Shown piece after piece: positions 47,783-57,612 of a stretch of 64,000 bases of DNA. The position numbers and the translations under genes were made by a program. How positions within the stretch are numbered: the first letter of the stretch is position 1; each line of letters begins with the position of its first letter. The DNA is from Rhodobacter xanthinilyticus (lineage in GTDB: Bacteria; Pseudomonadota; Alphaproteobacteria; Rhodobacterales; Rhodobacteraceae): assembly GCF_001856665.1 (NCBI RefSeq), contig NZ_CP017781.1:620001-684000 (forward strand). Reading direction: 5' to 3'. The notes below the pieces were generated by a model that saw only the letters and a list, made by a program, of their open reading frames with translations, was not told the DNA's origin and made no database searches.

Positions 47783-48685
47783 TCATGACGAGAGTCCTTG
47801 GGGTTGATATTGGTTGGTTTCGGGTGTGGCAAGCGCGCCGGGCGCGGAGCCCTCAGATTGCTCAAGCGCCCGGCGCGCTTCTGCCGGGGTCTTGTTGGCC
47901 AGCGAGGAATGCGGCCTGACGTTGTTGTAGTCGTAGCGCCAGAGTGCCAGCTTGCGGCGGGCATCGGCCAGGCTGTCGAAGATCTCCTCGTTCAGGCATT
48001 CGTCGCGCAGGCTGCCGTTGAAGCTCTCGATGAATCCGTTCTGCTGCGGCTTGCCCGGATCGATGTAGTGCCATTCGACGCCGTTCTCGTTAGCCCATTT
48101 CAGAATGGCCTTGCTGGTGAACTCGGTGCCATTGTCAGAAACGATGCAAGCGGGTTTGCCGTAAATCCTGACCAGCGCATCGAGTTCCCGCGCCACTCTG
48201 GCCCCCGAGATGCTGGTGTCGGCAATCAGGGCAAGGTTCTCGCGGCAGCGATCGTCGTTGACGGCCAGGATGCGGAACTTGCGGCAGGCCCCGAACGTGT
48301 CGGATAGGAAGTCCAAAGACCACCGCTGGTTCGGGCGCAATGGCACCGGCATCGGCGTTCGGCTGCCGCGCGCCCGTTTGCGGCCACGGCGTCGACGCAC
48401 CGACAGGCCCTCTTCCCGGTAGATGCGGTAGAGCTTCTTTTCGTTCATGATCATGCCCTTGCGCTCCAGCAGGATACCCACGCGCCGGTAGCCGAAGCGA
48501 CGGCGCTTCTCGACGATCTTGTGCATCGCCTCACGGATTTCCGGGTTATCGAGCGGCCTGTCACGCCGCACCGTCTTCGGATCGACACCGATCAGGACGC
48601 AGGCCCGGCGTTGAGAGATCGGATGATCCCTCATCGCCCGCAGCACCGCCTCCCGCCGTTGCACCGGTGTCGTCAGGGCTTTCCC
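47783..48685 (-). CDS. IS3 transposase OrfB (catalytic part), copy A
   Basis: The integrase-core part of the OrfAB transposase. The DDE residues are in [18 protein letters not shown] and the [16 protein letters not shown] region. It is translated as a fusion with OrfA after a -1 shift at the GGGAAAG heptamer (48679-48685 on the minus strand); the frame stays open upstream to 48856 but overlaps orfA. It differs from copy B at three residues only (Glu/Asp after VQRR, Leu/Pro in DRPxDN, Gln/His near the end). Confidence 0.9.
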
Positions 48686-48936
48686 AAGAGATCCTTCAGA
48701 ACCACGTTGTCCAGCATCGCATCCGCCAGAAGGCGCTTCAGCTTCGCGTTCTCGTCCTCGAGCTGCTTCAGCCGCTTGGCGTCCGACAGGTCCATCCCGC
48801 CATACTTCGCCTTGAGCTTGTAGAACGTCGCGGGGCTCAACCCGTGCTTCCGGCAAAGCTCGGAAGTCGGCAAACCCGCCTCCTGCTCCTTGATCATCCC
48901 GATAATCTGCGCCTCGGTGAACCGGCTTTTCCTCAT
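48673..48936 (-). CDS. IS3 transposase OrfA, copy A
   Basis: An 87-residue HTH protein: [20 protein letters not shown], then a leucine-zipper-like coiled coil ([20 protein letters not shown]). It binds the IS ends and is the N-terminal part of the fused transposase. It is identical in sequence to copy B's OrfA. Confidence 0.92.
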
Positions 48937-49004
48937 GTCGTCTGCTCCTTCTCAGGTTGGGCAGACTCTACATCACAGCGAGGGAACTTCCGGGGGGCAG
49001 GTCA

Positions 49005-49118
49005 CTCCTTGTTCAGGCGCTCGATCGGGTTCGTGCTGTGCAGCTTGGTGCGGTGCTGCCGGGGGAAGGCCATGTAGGCGAGCACGTCGTCTTCGCTTGC
49101 GTCCATCAAGTCGGCGAC
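49005..49118 (-). pseudogene. IS256 family transposase remnant
   Basis: The minus strand translates as VADLMDASEDDVLAYMAFPR, then QHRTKLHSTNPIERLNKE, an internal piece (about 38 residues) of a mutator-type (IS256) transposase around the last catalytic region. It is cut by IS3 copy A on one side and loses similarity at about 49118 on the other. Confidence 0.8.
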
Positions 49119-49179
49119 CCTAGTCTGAGCCCAACGTGACGAATGCTGCACCATGGGCGAATGTCGACTGCCGACCTCA

Positions 49180-50052
49180 CTACATCGGCGTCCGCATCAT
49201 CTCGCGGATCAGATCATTTGTCTCTGGTCTCGACGTTTGATGCCGATATCGGAGGGCCAGAACAGTTCTCGATAATTGAAGGCCCTCGATGGGCTTCGAC
49301 ACCAGTCCCATGTCCGCAGGAATAGCAGTGGCCGGCAAGATCAGCGCACCTGACCCTTGCCGAGCAAGTTCAACTAACCAATCCACGCGGTTGGACCGAT
49401 ACGCCGCGTAGAGTTCATGACCATGATCTGCGCAAGTCCCATGCAAAGCGTCCCGCATTTCGCAATTTAGTCGGTCGAGCATGTCGGTTTTTGCGAGAGC
49501 CGAAAGAGAAATTGCATCTTGTTCAGACAACGGATGCGACTTCGACATTACGACCTTGTAGTCCTCTTCATAGAGACGGTCTATGCGATAGAGGTCTTCA
49601 CTGACCTTCTCTGCGGTGACGACAACGTCAAGTTTTCCGTCTCGCAACCCGGCAAGAAGCTCGGAGGATGATGCAACAATCAATTCGATCTCGGCTTGCG
49701 GTAATCGCTTACGCGTACGCTCCATAGCTGCCGATATCAGGTTGTGGCCAATCGTTTCGCCGACACCGACAGAGATTGGAACCCGCTCCAAACGCATGTG
49801 ACGGACCGCCTCAGCCTTCGCCTGGCGCGTCTCATCGTAAATCCTCTGCAGCCTTGGCTGCATGAGTTTCCCGAGGGCTGTAAGCCTGCATCCTGCACGG
49901 TCCCTGACAAACAGCTCACCTCCAAGCTCGTCTTCAAGCTTCTTGATCGCAGTCGTCAAGGAAGGTTGGGACACATTGGAGGCACTGGCTGCGTGGGTGA
50001 AGTTTCGGTGCTCGCAGACAGCGAGAAAATACCTGATCTGGTTCATTTCCAT
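49180..50052 (-). CDS. LysR family transcriptional regulator
   Basis: A 290-residue LTTR. The N-terminal HTH is MNQIRYFLAVCEHRNFTHAA, then SNVSQPSLTTAIKKLEDELG; the substrate-binding domain has ISVGVGETIGHNLISAAMER and LDVVVTAEKVSEDLYRIDRL. Base composition is clearly less GC-rich than in the core genes, a sign of transfer. The ATG at 50052 has GGAGA upstream; the frame to 50151 is not supported. It is divergent from the IS21-interrupted ABM gene and is its likely regulator. Confidence 0.9.
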   Translation of the reverse strand: MEMNQIRYFLAVCEHRNFTHAASASNVSQPSLTTAIKKLEDELGGELFVRDRAGCRLTALGKLMQPRLQRIYDETRQAKAEAVRHMRLERVPISVGVGETIGHNLISAAMERTRKRLPQAEIELIVASSSELLAGLRDGKLDVVVTAEKVSEDLYRIDRLYEEDYKVVMSKSHPLSEQDAISLSALAKTDMLDRLNCEMRDALHGTCADHGHELYAAYRSNRVDWLVELARQGSGALILPATAIPADMGLVSKPIEGLQLSRTVLALRYRHQTSRPETNDLIREMMRTPM

Positions 50053-50100
50053 CGCCGCATTCTCCACCAGATTCCAACGCAGGCCATCAAAGCAACCTCC

Positions 50101-50125
50101 ATAGTCCATGTCTATCAAAAAATAG
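50101..50125. promoter_or_regulatory. LysR-type binding region between the divergent genes
   Basis: ATAG-N7-CTAT (50101-50115) is a T-N11-A LysR motif, followed by the overlapping CTAT-N6-ATAG (50112-50125). It lies 49 bp before the LysR start and 88 bp before the original ABM start codon. Confidence 0.55.
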
Positions 50126-50212
50126 AACTTCGGAATTGGAGTCCGACCCATCCGCCATGGGACAAGAGTGCATCGAAACCAAACACGACGAACTTCAAGT
50201 CAGGGGACGACC

Positions 50213-50228
50213 ATGAACATGAAAATCC
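50213..50228 (+). pseudogene. Severed 5' end of the ABM-domain protein gene
   Basis: ATGAACATGAAAATCC with AGGGGA upstream. Joined to 52768 onward (after removal of the IS21 element and one 6-bp duplicate), it gives MNMKILPIFAALALITTSAT ending AQ, a standard signal peptide, in frame with the ABM protein. This fragment alone now reads only a few codons before a stop in the IS. Confidence 0.75.
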
Positions 50229-50393
50229 TGTCAACGGCGGAGTAAAATTGGGCCACGGGGCGGCGCAAAATTGGGCCACTTTGGGTTTGCGCGAGACGCG
50301 GCTGATGGGCGGCGGCCAGTCAGCCGCGCTCTCCATATAGCTTGCGGGTGACTGGCCGCCTTGGACCGTCAGGTCCAAGTCTGATACTTTGGA

Positions 50394-51158
50394 TCAGGTG
50401 TTGTCGCCGGTCTTGCGCGCGCGACTTTGCGCGAGGCGATAGCTTTCGCCGTTCATCTCGAGGATGTTGACGTGGTGGGTCAACCGGTCGAGGAGCGCGC
50501 CGGTCAGCCGCTCGGTGCCGAAGGTCTCGGTCCATTCATCGAAGGGCAGATTGCTGGTGATCAGCGTGGCACCGCGCTCGTAGCGCTGGGAGATCATCTC
50601 AAAAAGCAGCTCGGCGCCGGTCTTTGACAGGGGCACGAACCCGAGCTCGTCGATGATCAGCAGCTTGACGGCAGCCATCTGCTTCTGGACGCGCAGCAGC
50701 CGACGTTCGTCTCGCGCCTCCATCAGCTCGTTGACCAGCGCGGCGGCGGTGGTGAAGCTGACAGACATGCCCTTCTGGCAGGCCGCCAACCCGAGGCCCA
50801 AGGCAATGTGGGTCTTGCCGGTTCCGCTGGGGCCAAGGGCGATCACGTTCTCACGCCGTTCGATCCATTCGCAGCGCGCCAGTTCCAGCACCTGCATCTT
50901 GTTCAGCTTCGGGATCGCCTTGAAGTCGAAGCTGTCGAGGCTTTTGGTGGCCGGGAACTTCGCAGCCTTGATGCGGCGCTCGACCATCCGCCGCTCGCGG
51001 TCAATGAGTTCCAGTTCAACGAGGCGCGACAGGAATTGGACATGGTCCAACCCTTCGGCGGCGCATTGGCGCGCAACCTTCTCGTGTTCCCGCAGGAAGG
51101 TGGGCAGCTTCAGCGTCTTCAGATGGTGGGCAAGCAGGATCTTCGGAGCCTCGCTCAT
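50394..51158 (-). CDS. istB: IS21 helper ATPase IstB
   Basis: A 254-residue AAA+ ATPase that loads target DNA for IstA. Walker A is GPSGTGKTH, Walker B is LLIIDELGFVP, and sensor 1 is LITSNLPFDEW. Its start overlaps the istA stop by 4 bp. Confidence 0.94.
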   Translation of the reverse strand: MSEAPKILLAHHLKTLKLPTFLREHEKVARQCAAEGLDHVQFLSRLVELELIDRERRMVERRIKAAKFPATKSLDSFDFKAIPKLNKMQVLELARCEWIERRENVIALGPSGTGKTHIALGLGLAACQKGMSVSFTTAAALVNELMEARDERRLLRVQKQMAAVKLLIIDELGFVPLSKTGAELLFEMISQRYERGATLITSNLPFDEWTETFGTERLTGALLDRLTHHVNILEMNGESYRLAQSRARKTGDNT

Positions 51159-52642
51159 TCCGCCGCCTCCGACATCAAGGCCATGTAGCTGGCCGCACGC
51201 GTCGTCTCGACGTTCGCCCGCGGCAGGTAGGGGTAGACATCGAGATCAAGCCTTGGGGGGCGCTTCTCGACCTGGCAAAGCACGAGGTGCTTCACGGCGT
51301 CAAAGCCGACCGCGCCCAGCTTCAGGGCCTTCTTCACGGCGGCATGCAGGTCATCCATGCCAAAGGTCTCAAGCAGCCGCAGCACCTGCACATACTCGCG
51401 GCGCCCCATCTTGAGCATGCGCGCCTCCATCAGGCGGCGCAAAGTCTGGAACTCTTCGGGCAGGTCCCATTCCGCCAGAGGCGCAGCCTGGTCCAAGGCA
51501 TTGATCTTGCGCTCGATCAGCGGGAGGTAGTGAACCGGGTCGAAGATCATGTCCTCGCGATCGTAACAGCGCGGGTGTCGGGCGATCACCTCCCCGCGAC
51601 AGCCGATCACGACCTCATCGACATAGCCGCGGATCCAGACATCCTGATGGCCATAGGCGACCGGGACCGAGTAATCGTTGGTGTCATAGCGCACGAGCGA
51701 CTGCGAGCTGACCCTGCCGCTCGCTTGGTCGCAGGCGTCGAACGGGGCAGTAGGCAATGGGCGCATCGCCGCCAGATCGCGCTGCAGCCTCTCGCCGATC
51801 GTCTCCTTGTGACCCCGAAGAATGCGCGTGAGGCGTGCGCAGCACTGCCCTTCAAGGTCGGCGTTGAAGGCGTCCCAACTGGCAAAGTGGGGGATCGGCA
51901 CCATGTGGTTGCGGCGGGCGTAGCCGACCATCCCCTCGACAGCGCCCTTGTCGTTCCCCTTCCCGGGCCGACCATAGCGATCCCGAAACAGGTAATGCGA
52001 CTGCAAGCCGCTGAACAGCGTGGCGCGGATGCGCGTGCCATCTGGCTGGATCTTCGAGACCAGGCAGCGGTCGTTATCGTAGAGCACCGACTGCGGCACC
52101 CCGCCGAAGAAGGCAAAGGCGCGGACATGCCCGTCTATCCAGGCCTCCGCCGTCGCCGCCGGATAGGCCCGGACGAAATAGGCATCGCTGTGCGGCAGGT
52201 CGATGACAAAGAAATGCGCCTTCTGCTCGACACCGGCGATGACGACGACCGCTTCGCCAAAATCGGCCTGAGCATGGCCCGGCGGATGGGCCAGTGGCAC
52301 GAACATCTCCCGTGTCCGCCGCTCACGCTCACGCACGTAATCCTTGACGATCGTATAGCCGCCGGTGAAGCCATGCTCGGCCTGAAGCCGTTCCCATATC
52401 CGCTTGGCCGTATGACGCTGCTTGCGATGCACCGCCTTGTCGGCTTCAAGCCAGGCGTCAATGAACTCGGTGAACCCGTCCAGCTTCGGCCGCCTGATCG
52501 GCTTGTCCCGCCGGTAGCCAGGCGGCACCGAGAAGGCCAACATCTTCTCAACCGTCCCGCGCGAAATGTTGAAATGCTTCGCCGCCGCCCGCGCGCTCAT
52601 GCCCTCGGCACACGCCAAGCGAACCTTCTTGTAAAGTTCCAC
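51155..52642 (-). CDS. istA: IS21 transposase IstA
   Basis: A 495-residue DDE transposase. The N-terminal HTH is EGMSARAAAKHFNISRGTVE; the catalytic core includes HAQADFGEA, SVLYDNDRC and GNDKGAVEGMVGYARR; a C-terminal domain (RYDTNDYSVPVAYG) follows. It appears intact, so the element may still be active. Confidence 0.93.
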   Translation of the reverse strand: MELYKKVRLACAEGMSARAAAKHFNISRGTVEKMLAFSVPPGYRRDKPIRRPKLDGFTEFIDAWLEADKAVHRKQRHTAKRIWERLQAEHGFTGGYTIVKDYVRERERRTREMFVPLAHPPGHAQADFGEAVVVIAGVEQKAHFFVIDLPHSDAYFVRAYPAATAEAWIDGHVRAFAFFGGVPQSVLYDNDRCLVSKIQPDGTRIRATLFSGLQSHYLFRDRYGRPGKGNDKGAVEGMVGYARRNHMVPIPHFASWDAFNADLEGQCCARLTRILRGHKETIGERLQRDLAAMRPLPTAPFDACDQASGRVSSQSLVRYDTNDYSVPVAYGHQDVWIRGYVDEVVIGCRGEVIARHPRCYDREDMIFDPVHYLPLIERKINALDQAAPLAEWDLPEEFQTLRRLMEARMLKMGRREYVQVLRLLETFGMDDLHAAVKKALKLGAVGFDAVKHLVLCQVEKRPPRLDLDVYPYLPRANVETTRAASYMALMSEAAE

Positions 52643-52826
52643 GGTATAAATCTCCCCACCCTCCCTGCTGCCGCAAGAAGGGAAAAGTGGCAGGATTTTA
52701 CTCCGCCCGCAGCGAGACGATCCCGCCGCTACCGTGGCCTAATTTTGCACCGCCGTTTCCAAAATCCTTCCGATATTCGCCGCACTGGCTCTGATCACAA
52801 CTTCTGCAACTGCACAGGACAATCCA

Positions 52827-53471
52827 ATGGAAAATCATGCTGCCAGCTACATCGCCATGCCGGCCGCCGAAGGCCAGACCGGAGCCTTCGCGGAGTTTTT
52901 GGCTGGTGCTGCACCTATCGTGCGAGAAACAGAGCCGGGCACTGTACTGTGGTTCGCTCTGCAAGCCGATGATACGCTCGCAATCTTTGACATCTTCGTA
53001 GACGAAGACGCACGCGATGCTCACTTTTCAGGAGCGGTTGCTGCGGCTTTGAACCAAAATGCCGACGCCTTGGTCAACGGAGGATGGGAAGACGGTGTTG
53101 TGGCGAATATCAACAACTCCGATGTCCTGTCGGTAAAGGCGCCGGTTGATCTCTACACGGCAACGACCGCAACGTACATCAAGCTCGAAGCTGCTCCAGG
53201 TAAAGGTCCAGAATTGGCAGCTTTGCTGACCGCCGCCGGCCCCATCGTCGCAGATACCGAACCCAAGACATTGTTCTGGGCGGCGCTGCAAATTGACGAG
53301 AGCAACTTTGCCATCTTCGACATCTTTGCCGACAACTCTGGCCGCGAAGCGCATTTTGCCGGACAGGTCGCCGGACTCCTGAATGCAAAGGCTTCAGAGT
53401 TGGTCTCAGGCGGATGGGACGATGGTGTTGTGGCAAACGTCCGCAATTTCGACATCCTCGCTGCCAAGTAA
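52827..53471 (+). CDS. Tandem ABM-like (dimeric alpha/beta barrel) protein, signal peptide removed by IS21
   Basis: From the first remaining ATG, 214 residues with two copies of a ~100-residue ABM/quinol-monooxygenase-like unit: SYIAMPAAEGQTGAFAEFLA to VNGGWEDGVVANINNSDVLS, and TYIKLEAAPGKGPELAALLT to VSGGWDDGVVANVRNFDILA. Both contain FDIF and a GGW-DDG motif. The frame is open further upstream to the IS21 end and there encodes the hydrophobic part of a signal peptide. The original protein was exported; the present product, if made, would stay in the cytoplasm. GC content is lower than in core genes. Confidence 0.75.
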   Translation: MENHAASYIAMPAAEGQTGAFAEFLAGAAPIVRETEPGTVLWFALQADDTLAIFDIFVDEDARDAHFSGAVAAALNQNADALVNGGWEDGVVANINNSDVLSVKAPVDLYTATTATYIKLEAAPGKGPELAALLTAAGPIVADTEPKTLFWAALQIDESNFAIFDIFADNSGREAHFAGQVAGLLNAKASELVSGGWDDGVVANVRNFDILAAK

Positions 53472-53493
53472 TCTTGAGTTGCTCTGAGAAAGA

Positions 53494-53527
53494 AGTGCCC
53501 GGTGCAACCCATCGGGCGCTTCGCTGT
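53494..53527 (+). terminator. Terminator of the ABM gene
   Basis: AGTGCCCG / CGGGCGCT stem (one mismatch), then TTCGCTGTTTT, 22 bp after the stop codon. Confidence 0.7.
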
Positions 53528-53559
53528 TTTCATTGAGATCATGCCAAAGCGGCCGACTA

Positions 53560-54390
53560 GGGTCAGGACCCATTGATTTCCAAGGGATGGCATGATTCAC
53601 GGTTCGAAAACGAGCGGTGAACATGTCTGATCTGTTTTGGCTGACCGACGCCCAGATGGCGCGTCTTGAGCCCTTCTTTCCCAAGTCACACGGCAGGCCA
53701 CGCGTCGATGACCGACGTGTGCTGAGTGGGATTATCTTCATCAATCGCAACGGCTTGCGGTGGCGGGATGCCCCCATCGCCTACGGTCCACACAAGACGC
53801 TCTACAACCGTTGGAAACGATGGAGCGACAAGGGCATCTTCGCGCGAATGATGGCCGGTCTGGCTGCCGAGCACAGCGAGACGAAGACCGTGATGATCGA
53901 CGCGACCTACCTCAGGGCCCACCGAACAGCGACCAGTTTGGGCGTGAAAAAGGGGGGCGTGGACGCCTGATCGGTCGGACGAAGGGCGGCATGAACACTA
54001 AACTGCACGCTATCTGCGACAGCCAGGGCCGGCCGCTCAACCTCTTCGCCACCGCCGGACAAGTCAGCGACTACATCGGCGCGCGAGCGCTGCTCAGCAG
54101 CCTGCCGAAGGTCGATTGGCTGCTCGGCGATCGGGGGTATGATGCCGACTGGTTCAGAGAAGCATTGAAAGACAAGGGGATACGCGCCTGCATCCCTGGC
54201 CGTAAGCAGCGCAAGAAGGCGGTGAAATACGACAAGCGCCGCTACAAACGCCGGAACCGGATCGAGATCATGTTCGGCAGGCTAAAGGATTGGCGACGCG
54301 TTGCGACACGATACGACAGGTGTCCGAAGGTCTTCCTGTCTGCCATCGCCCTCGCAACAACCGTCATCTATTGGTTATGAGTCCTGACCC
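53560..54390 (+). mobile_element. IS5 family insertion sequence (IS427-like)
   Basis: An 831-bp element with terminal repeats GGGTCAGGACCCATTG and, on the other strand at the right, GGGTCAGGACTCATAA. The flanks are CTA and TAG, consistent with insertion at a CTAG site with a TA duplication. It contains one transposase gene in two frames. Confidence 0.88.
53623..54380 (+). CDS. IS5 family transposase (OrfA/OrfB, -1 frameshift)
   Basis: Two overlapping frames form one transposase of about 252 residues. The first (53623-53970) begins MSDLFWLTDAQMARLEPFFP and has the first catalytic aspartate in VMIDATYLRAHRTA. The second frame (open 53760-54380) continues GRGRLIGRTKGGMNTKLHAI, with GDRGYDADWFREAL and the last glutamate in RNRIEIMFGRLKDWRR. 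The A5G6 run at 53947-53957 is the slip site. This is the normal expression mode of IS427-type elements, so it is not scored as broken. A GTG at 53617 is an alternative start. Confidence 0.85.
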
Positions 54391-54395
54391 TAGGC

Positions 54396-54875
54396 GCCGA
54401 ATGTGAATGGTGCGGCGGACCTCTCCCCGAGGGCGCGACGGCGCGGCGGATGTATTGCTCGATGAAGTGCAAGAACGCGGCAACCCATGCCCTTGTCAGG
54501 CAGGCGCGGGCCGAGGCGCGCAAGGGGCGCATTTGCCCGATGTGTGGCGGGCCGGTATCCGATGACGTTCGCGCCGACAAGATCTATTGCAGCAAGCTTT
54601 GCCAGAGACGGGCGAGCAGGGCTTATGCGCGCGGCAAACGCGAGAAGACGTGCGCGCATTGCGGCAAACCGTTCTTTGCTCACCGCGACGCGCAAAGGTT
54701 CTGTTCGGTGCAATGCGGTCACAAGGCCGCACCGATCGAGCCCAAGCCCTGCGCTCATTGCGGCGCGATGTTCAAGGGAAGGCAGGGGCAAAGATTCTGC
54801 GGCAAAGCCTGCGCCACGGCGGCGCGCTGGACGGCGGGAACGATGACCCTGCCACCGGGGCGGGGCAAGGGCTGA
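54396..54875 (+). pseudogene. Four-knuckle zinc protein, 5' end lost at the IS5 border
   Basis: The first in-frame ATG is 54450 (141 residues: MYCSMKCKNAATHALV...), but the same frame is open upstream and already encodes AECEWCGGPLPEGATARR, the first half of a zinc knuckle. The full protein has four repeats of CxxCG...(Y/F)C-xx(x)-C: CEWC/YCSMKC, CPMC/YCSKLC, CAHC/FCSVQC and CAHC/FCGKAC. No start codon remains before the first CxxC, and the IS5 end is 6 bp upstream. Translation from 54450 would lose half of the first knuckle. The family is unknown; zinc binding is inferred. Confidence 0.7.
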
Positions 54876-56458: not shown

Positions 56459-56722
56459 ATGAGGAAAAGCCGGTTCACCGAGGCGCAGATTATCGGGATG
56501 ATCAAGGAGCAGGAGGCGGGTTTGCCGACTTCCGAGCTTTGCCGGAAGCACGGGTTGAGCCCCGCGACGTTCTACAAGCTCAAGGCGAAGTATGGCGGGA
56601 TGGACCTGTCGGACGCCAAGCGGCTGAAGCAGCTCGAGGACGAGAACGCGAAGCTGAAGCGCCTTCTGGCGGATGCGATGCTGGACAACGTGGTTCTGAA
56701 GGATCTCTTGGGAAAGCCCTGA
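56459..56722 (+). CDS. IS3 transposase OrfA, copy B
   Basis: An 87-residue HTH and coiled-coil protein, identical to copy A. AGAAGGAGCAGAC precedes the ATG. It ends [10 protein letters not shown]; the frameshift heptamer lies just before its stop. Confidence 0.92.
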
Positions 56723-57612
56723 CGACACCGGTGCAACGGCGGGACGCGGTGCTGCGGGCGATGAGGGATCATCCGATCTCTCAACGCCGGGCCTGCGTCC
56801 TGATCGGTGTCGATCCGAAGACGGTGCGGCGTGACAGGCCGCCCGATAACCCGGAAATCCGTGAGGCGATGCACAAGATCGTCGAGAAGCGCCGTCGCTT
56901 CGGCTACCGGCGCGTGGGTATCCTGCTGGAGCGCAAGGGCATGATCATGAACGAAAAGAAGCTCTACCGCATCTACCGGGAAGAGGGCCTGTCGGTGCGT
57001 CGACGCCGTGGCCGCAAACGGGCGCGCGGCAGCCGAACGCCGATGCCGGTGCCATTGCGCCCGAACCAGCGGTGGTCTTTGGACTTCCTATCCGACACGT
57101 TCGGGGCCTGCCGCAAGTTCCGCATCCTGGCCGTCAACGACGATCGCTGCCGCGAGAACCTTGCCCTGATTGCCGACACCAGCATCTCGGGGGCCAGAGT
57201 GGCGCGGGAACTCGATGCGCTGGTCAGGATTTACGGCAAACCCGCTTGCATCGTTTCTGACAATGGCACCGAGTTCACCAGCAAGGCCATCCTGAAATGG
57301 GCTAACGAGAACGGCGTCGAATGGCACTACATCGATCCGGGCAAGCCGCAGCAGAACGGATTCATCGAGAGCTTCAACGGCAGCCTGCGCGACGAATGCC
57401 TGAACGAGGAGATCTTCGACAGCCTGGCCGATGCCCGCCGCAAGCTGGCACTCTGGCGCTACGACTACAACAACGTCAGGCCGCATTCCTCGCTGGCCAA
57501 CAAGACCCCGGCAGAAGCGCGCCGGGCGCTTGAGCAATCTGAGGGCTCCGCGCCCGGCGCGCTTGCCACACCCGAAACCAACCAATATCATCCCCAAGGA
57601 CTCTCGTCATGA
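56710..57612 (+). CDS. IS3 transposase OrfB (catalytic part), copy B
   Basis: The catalytic part of the OrfAB fusion (total about 384 residues). At 56710-56716 the heptamer GGGAAAG is in the right register (X XXY YYZ) for -1 slippage from orfA; the shifted frame continues [18 protein letters not shown]. The DDE motifs are as in copy A. The frame is open back to 56539 but that part overlaps orfA. Confidence 0.9.

Follow-up and report, generated by a model that had tools for sequence, protein, structure and literature searches.

An IS21 insertion splits the leader of a predicted exported double-ABM protein whose body keeps a conserved putative internal start

The window, a stretch of 64,000 nucleotides from Rhodobacter xanthinilyticus, contains a reading frame at 52827..53471 on the plus strand that gene finders would call an ordinary cytosolic protein. 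The frame lies beside an insertion element, which raises the question of whether it is a gene in its own right or the remainder of a longer one, and what could still be made from it. The element (50229..52761, minus strand, 2,533 bp) carries istB (50394-51158) and istA (51155-52642), encoding an AAA+ IstB and a DDE-type IstA in the IS21 order, with the two frames sharing 4 nt. In addition to Pfam matches, the NCBIfam models NF033546 (285.1 bits, cut-off 160) and NF038214 (291.2 bits, cut-off 200), named transpos_IS21 and IS21_help_AAA, were matched. The terminal inverted repeats are identical at 25 of the 30 outermost positions and a short target duplication, AAATCC, stands on the left at 50223..50228 and on the right at 52762..52767, so that both the gene content and the ends are those of the IS21 family. 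The same 2,533 bp are found at 100% identity in 21 copies in the genome, 14 on contig C1 and seven on C2, and the boundaries at 50229 and 52761 were set by comparing them. That no copy differs from the others points to a recent burst of transposition. Direct repeats flank nine of the 21 copies (6 bp in seven, 5 bp in one and 9 bp in one); the other 12 have none, perhaps after recombination between copies. An exchange that swapped duplications between copies was rejected, as no left 6-mer equals the right 6-mer of another copy. Among the copies on C2, L004 and L007 share the left flank and L001 and L004 the right one, as after recombination or duplication between copies. The clean 6-bp repeat around the copy at 50229-52761 indicates a simple insertion. 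The coordinates of the element, the AAATCC duplicate and the reading frame given in the preliminary description were all correct.

The point of insertion is codon 6 of a gene here called abm. Its native start and first five codons (50213..50228, plus strand), recognized by the equivalent start in uninterrupted orthologues, are now detached and read MNMKILSTAE followed by a stop codon. To the right of the element the open abm frame extends from 52743 as far as its stop codon, 53469-53471. The remainder of the signal peptide (52768..52826, plus strand; compare L035) is in frame without a start codon, the stretch ahead of 52827 translates as PIFAALALITTSATAQDNP, and no ATG, GTG or TTG occurs in this frame between 52743 and 52827. 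Removal of the element together with one duplicate had been predicted to restore an in-frame reading. This reading exists in nature: the allele L035 of Pseudorhodobacter sp. MZDSW-24AT, which has no IS, agrees with it letter for letter across the insertion point, and the uninterrupted reading used here was taken from this allele and not from a scripted join.

Relatives of the gene were collected from a genome-collection scan, of which the best 80 of 97 were used, together with further genomes (L104-L107), plasmids (L117-L129) and a contig from a viral collection (L130) that carries abm with its neighbour lysR. In the resulting 98 loci, some genomes of which may be duplicates, clustering at 97% gave 40 clusters; L010 was dropped because it lies on the same contig as L054. 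The record of L054 and L010 is labelled Enemella evansiae TN21-6, yet the contig was placed in the window's own family, so that either the label or the assembly may be in error. In 93 of the 98 loci an open ATG start lies 20-40 codons ahead of the position that corresponds to 52827. Judged by hydropathy, the leaders of the 40 cluster representatives have an N-region and a hydrophobic core, as predicted for Sec export, and some of them have no Lys or Arg among the first five residues. In 95 of the 98 loci, small residues occupy positions -3 and -1 of a cleavage site that immediately precedes residue -4. No locus proved to be a leaderless orthologue starting at the equivalent of 52827: L026, L039, L040 and L049 have broken leaders, and L085 is ambiguous, with no in-frame ATG, GTG or TTG and with AAGGAGG before an ATT that is a possible start. 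The signal-peptide-like leaders of the uninterrupted orthologues thus support the earlier claim that the gene at 52827 is the body of an exported protein split by IS21. Among plasmids, 68 records match the full-length query at E 1e-40, and all 60 listed start at query residue 1 in one piece, a comparison in which internal stops would not show.

The body from the internal ATG (52827..53471, 214 aa) matches Pfam ABM (PF03992) with 23.7 bits against a cut-off of 23.1, just over the threshold and with a single domain matched. The AlphaFold model (27 sequences, mean pLDDT of 96.8) has two tandem ABM domains, the first strand beginning at residue 5 after the internal Met. The Pfam match, the dimeric ferredoxin-like fold of the model and the PDB neighbours point to the ABM superfamily. 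The body alone forms a complete predicted tandem ABM fold, and therefore a product started at 52827 would also be a complete fold. L109 and L115, both distant homologues with one domain, start a few residues ahead of the matching strand; the internal Met therefore sits where an ancestral start may have been, and it may survive from an ancestor that was cytosolic and had a single domain. In PHROGs the body matched only phrog_6411, of unknown function. A role against phages was considered and rejected, as PADLOC returned no family for the body or for the adjacent LysR.

The start of the body is conserved at the nucleotide level. The internal ATG is kept in 97 of the 98 loci, and a Shine-Dalgarno-like AGGA (52816..52819, plus strand) stands exactly 7 nt upstream of it in 96. 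The exceptions are L076 and L087, which have no AGGA at this spacing, and L086, where the ATG lies one codon later. As background, nine of the 1,693 ATGs in the window have AGGA at the 7-nt spacing. Third bases were compared over 220 columns in the 40 clusters, comprising 12 leader codons and the gap-free body columns without a Met or Trp consensus. Codon -4, which makes the AG of AGGA, has G as its third base in 40 of the 40 clusters, which share ancestry and are not independent, and is the sole invariant third base, even though the codons there stand for Gln, Glu, Lys or Met and in one case for a stop. It is again alone in this with 25 and with 21 clusters, and is joined by a second column with 16 and with 14; in a weaker test of uniform two-fold columns, three of 66 were uniform, codon -4 included. 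Gln at codon -4 is CAG in all 35 clusters that have it, as against 128 CAA and 100 CAG in the bodies, and 67 CAA and 32 CAG where a body Gln precedes a codon starting with G. L051, which has a longer leader, recreates AGGA at this spacing from a separate GAG-GAA, and in L082 AGGA is likewise formed by GAG-GAA. Part of this conservation may lie at the protein level, because AGGA overlaps the common Ala-Gln-Asp/Glu cleavage motif. On these comparisons the ATG at 52827 and its AGGA look selected, and the pairing of a conserved internal Shine-Dalgarno sequence with a start codon is that expected of a putative dual-start gene. An antisense or RNA explanation of the AGGA was discarded, as Rfam at its gathering thresholds returned no family in 49000-54400. 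The preliminary description took the gene at 52827 to be either silent or the source of a mislocalised product from an internal ATG. This interpretation holds up, except that the internal ATG, treated there as incidental, does not look so: with a conserved Shine-Dalgarno sequence and ATG, its product need not be a mislocalised accident.

The neighbourhood of abm recurs in other genomes. A LysR-type regulator of 290 aa (49180..50052, minus strand; Pfam LysR_substrate and HTH_1) is transcribed divergently across a 160-bp gap; its start at 50052 has an equivalent in several annotated plasmid records and it reads through intact in the window. The gap holds the palindrome TCTATCAAAAAATAGA (50111..50126), a possible LysR binding site, a loose form of which lies upstream in 39 of the 40 cluster representatives. 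lysR is intact in 92 of the 98 loci; in L024 it stops early, in L034, L036 and L088 it runs into contig ends or breaks, and near L039 and L056 there is none. By blastn against the 98 loci and L010, the left part of the unit in the window is 49127..50228, up to the IS, and the right edge is 53472..53559, where homology ends in many loci and where a terminator-like stem lies at 53492-53522, one of five such matches against 3.3 expected. In many loci the unit ends within window positions 49119-49127 on the left and 53555-53559 on the right while the flanking DNA differs, and both ends are the same in 19 of the 34 distinct flank pairs listed. With sharp ends that recur from locus to locus and no transposase inside, the lysR-abm pair resembles a small mobile unit. 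The gene is absent from all 17 same-genus genomes, and seven of 394 family genomes have any match, including the window's own genome and one weak partial match; abm loci from several orders are more than 90% identical. On plasmids the neighbours of the unit vary, with conjugation genes, transporters and toxin-antitoxin pairs. Plasmid pDSHI03 of Dinoroseobacter shibae DFL 12, a laboratory strain with an intact gene, is among the carriers. In the window, two near-identical elements that by eye are of the IS3 type (47783-48936 and 56459-57612) stand in opposite orientation on either side of the region. An element that by eye is of the IS5 type, with two overlapping frames (53617-54380), adjoins the unit, and the alignment with L011 continues into the same element. 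A narrow search of open-licence literature for exported ABM proteins with LysR or plasmids returned only work on another group's conjugative elements, and a search of the same scope for ABM with Roseobacter and gene transfer returned nothing.

Disruption of a leader by an IS is an ordinary event; the points of interest are the conserved internal start and the recurrent loss of the leader only. L026 has a frameshift in the leader, L040 and L049 have a stop inside it, and L039 is joined to an element that appears, by eye, to be of the IS3 type. In these four loci the leader is destroyed, yet AGGA, ATG and the 214-codon body are all kept. A plain loss of function would see the insertion in the window, like these lesions, as the death of an expendable mobile accessory gene, whose body owes its open frame solely to the recency of these events and whose AGGA and ATG are by-products of the Ala-Gln-Asp/Glu motif and of ancestry. 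The rarity of abm in the genus and family fits such a gene. The lesions of L039 and L040 do look recent, since these loci are 0.998 and 0.997 identical to intact relatives, and selection on the body of the lesioned loci is not clear, with dN/dS values mostly inside the range of intact pairs; the value for L049 slightly exceeds the 90th percentile of one bin (0.175 against 0.162). The same account leaves unexplained why, among 220 columns, the sole third base that never varies should belong to the codon forming AGGA, and why L051 and L082 rebuild AGGA with other codons. In addition, bodies are unbroken over 214-216 codons in all 98 loci, with no stop against two leaders with nonsense codons, for which (25/239) squared gives about 0.011 by hand, a post hoc figure from a set in which bodies broken by a frameshift or an insertion are under-sampled, as they would tend to fall among the 17 of 97 hits left out. 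We regard plain loss of function as rather unlikely.

Transcription bears on this account and on a further one. A scan of 49900-53600 with the sigma-70 consensus found one promoter-like site, at 50219-50248 on the plus strand (0.5 expected), and no plus-strand site in 52640-52827. Alphaproteobacterial promoters often depart from this consensus. The native intergenic region and its palindrome are now on the far side of IS21 from the body, and as the scan gave nothing promoter-like from the IS end up to 52827, transcription of the body is probably weak, barring read-through. The lack of such a site agrees with a loss of function. It speaks against a promoter supplied by IS21 that would cause over-production of the body in the cytosol and thus a gain of mislocalised protein, an idea suggested by the promoter parts that IS21-family ends carry according to PMC10122671. 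The body adjoins the istA-proximal end, whose -10 element would point inwards, and the outward TTGACA belongs to the other end, which faces lysR. Such over-production appears very improbable.

We consider it likely, from the comparative evidence, that export has been lost, that the body is poorly transcribed and that the conserved internal start could still yield a cytosolic form. IS21 has inserted, probably recently, at codon 6 of an abm gene that is linked to lysR and was acquired horizontally. The native promoter region, the start and the first part of the signal peptide now lie on one side of the element and the remainder of the secreted double-ABM protein on the other, so that export would cease and the native start would yield no more than a 10-residue peptide. 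The 214-codon body stays open and is predicted to be a complete fold, with AGGA-N7-ATG as its putatively selected internal start. In intact relatives this start may produce small amounts of a leaderless cytosolic form alongside the exported protein; in the window it would be the only start left. As the relatives suggest that the shortened gene starts at a conserved second start, an exported and an internal form may both be regular products of this protein family. More tentatively, we propose that this two-gene mobile unit encodes an exported double-ABM protein that is also purposely made leaderless from a conserved internal ribosome-binding site, giving the cytosol its own form. Leader-only losses appear to have arisen independently in the window, L026, L039, L040 and L049, so that some hosts may manage with the cytosolic form alone; this broader proposal is quite possible rather than probable. 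The conserved internal start thus offers a testable case in which a single gene, carried on mobile DNA, would encode two locations; natural variants of it have lost the exported form alone.

The element shares with the IS21 family its IstA and IstB, terminal inverted repeats, duplicated target and multi-copy state. The IS21-family element studied in PMC10122671 is reported to have 5-bp target repeats, whereas seven of the nine repeat-bearing copies here have 6 bp. The body has the tandem ferredoxin-like ABM fold in common with 3mcs (FN1347; TM-score normalized to the query of 0.78, 14% identity) and 3f44 (0.73, 10% identity), and 2pd1 (NE2512, 38% identity) aligns to one of its domains; intact abm relatives add a leader peptide. 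For Salmonella OmpX and PagC, PMC11005335 describes N-terminal proteoforms without signal peptides from in-frame internal starts. The evidence there is ribosome profiling, and here it is comparative sequence alone in another protein family. As in the predicted short form of abm, the short forms of OmpX and PagC begin near the cleavage site, without the leader.
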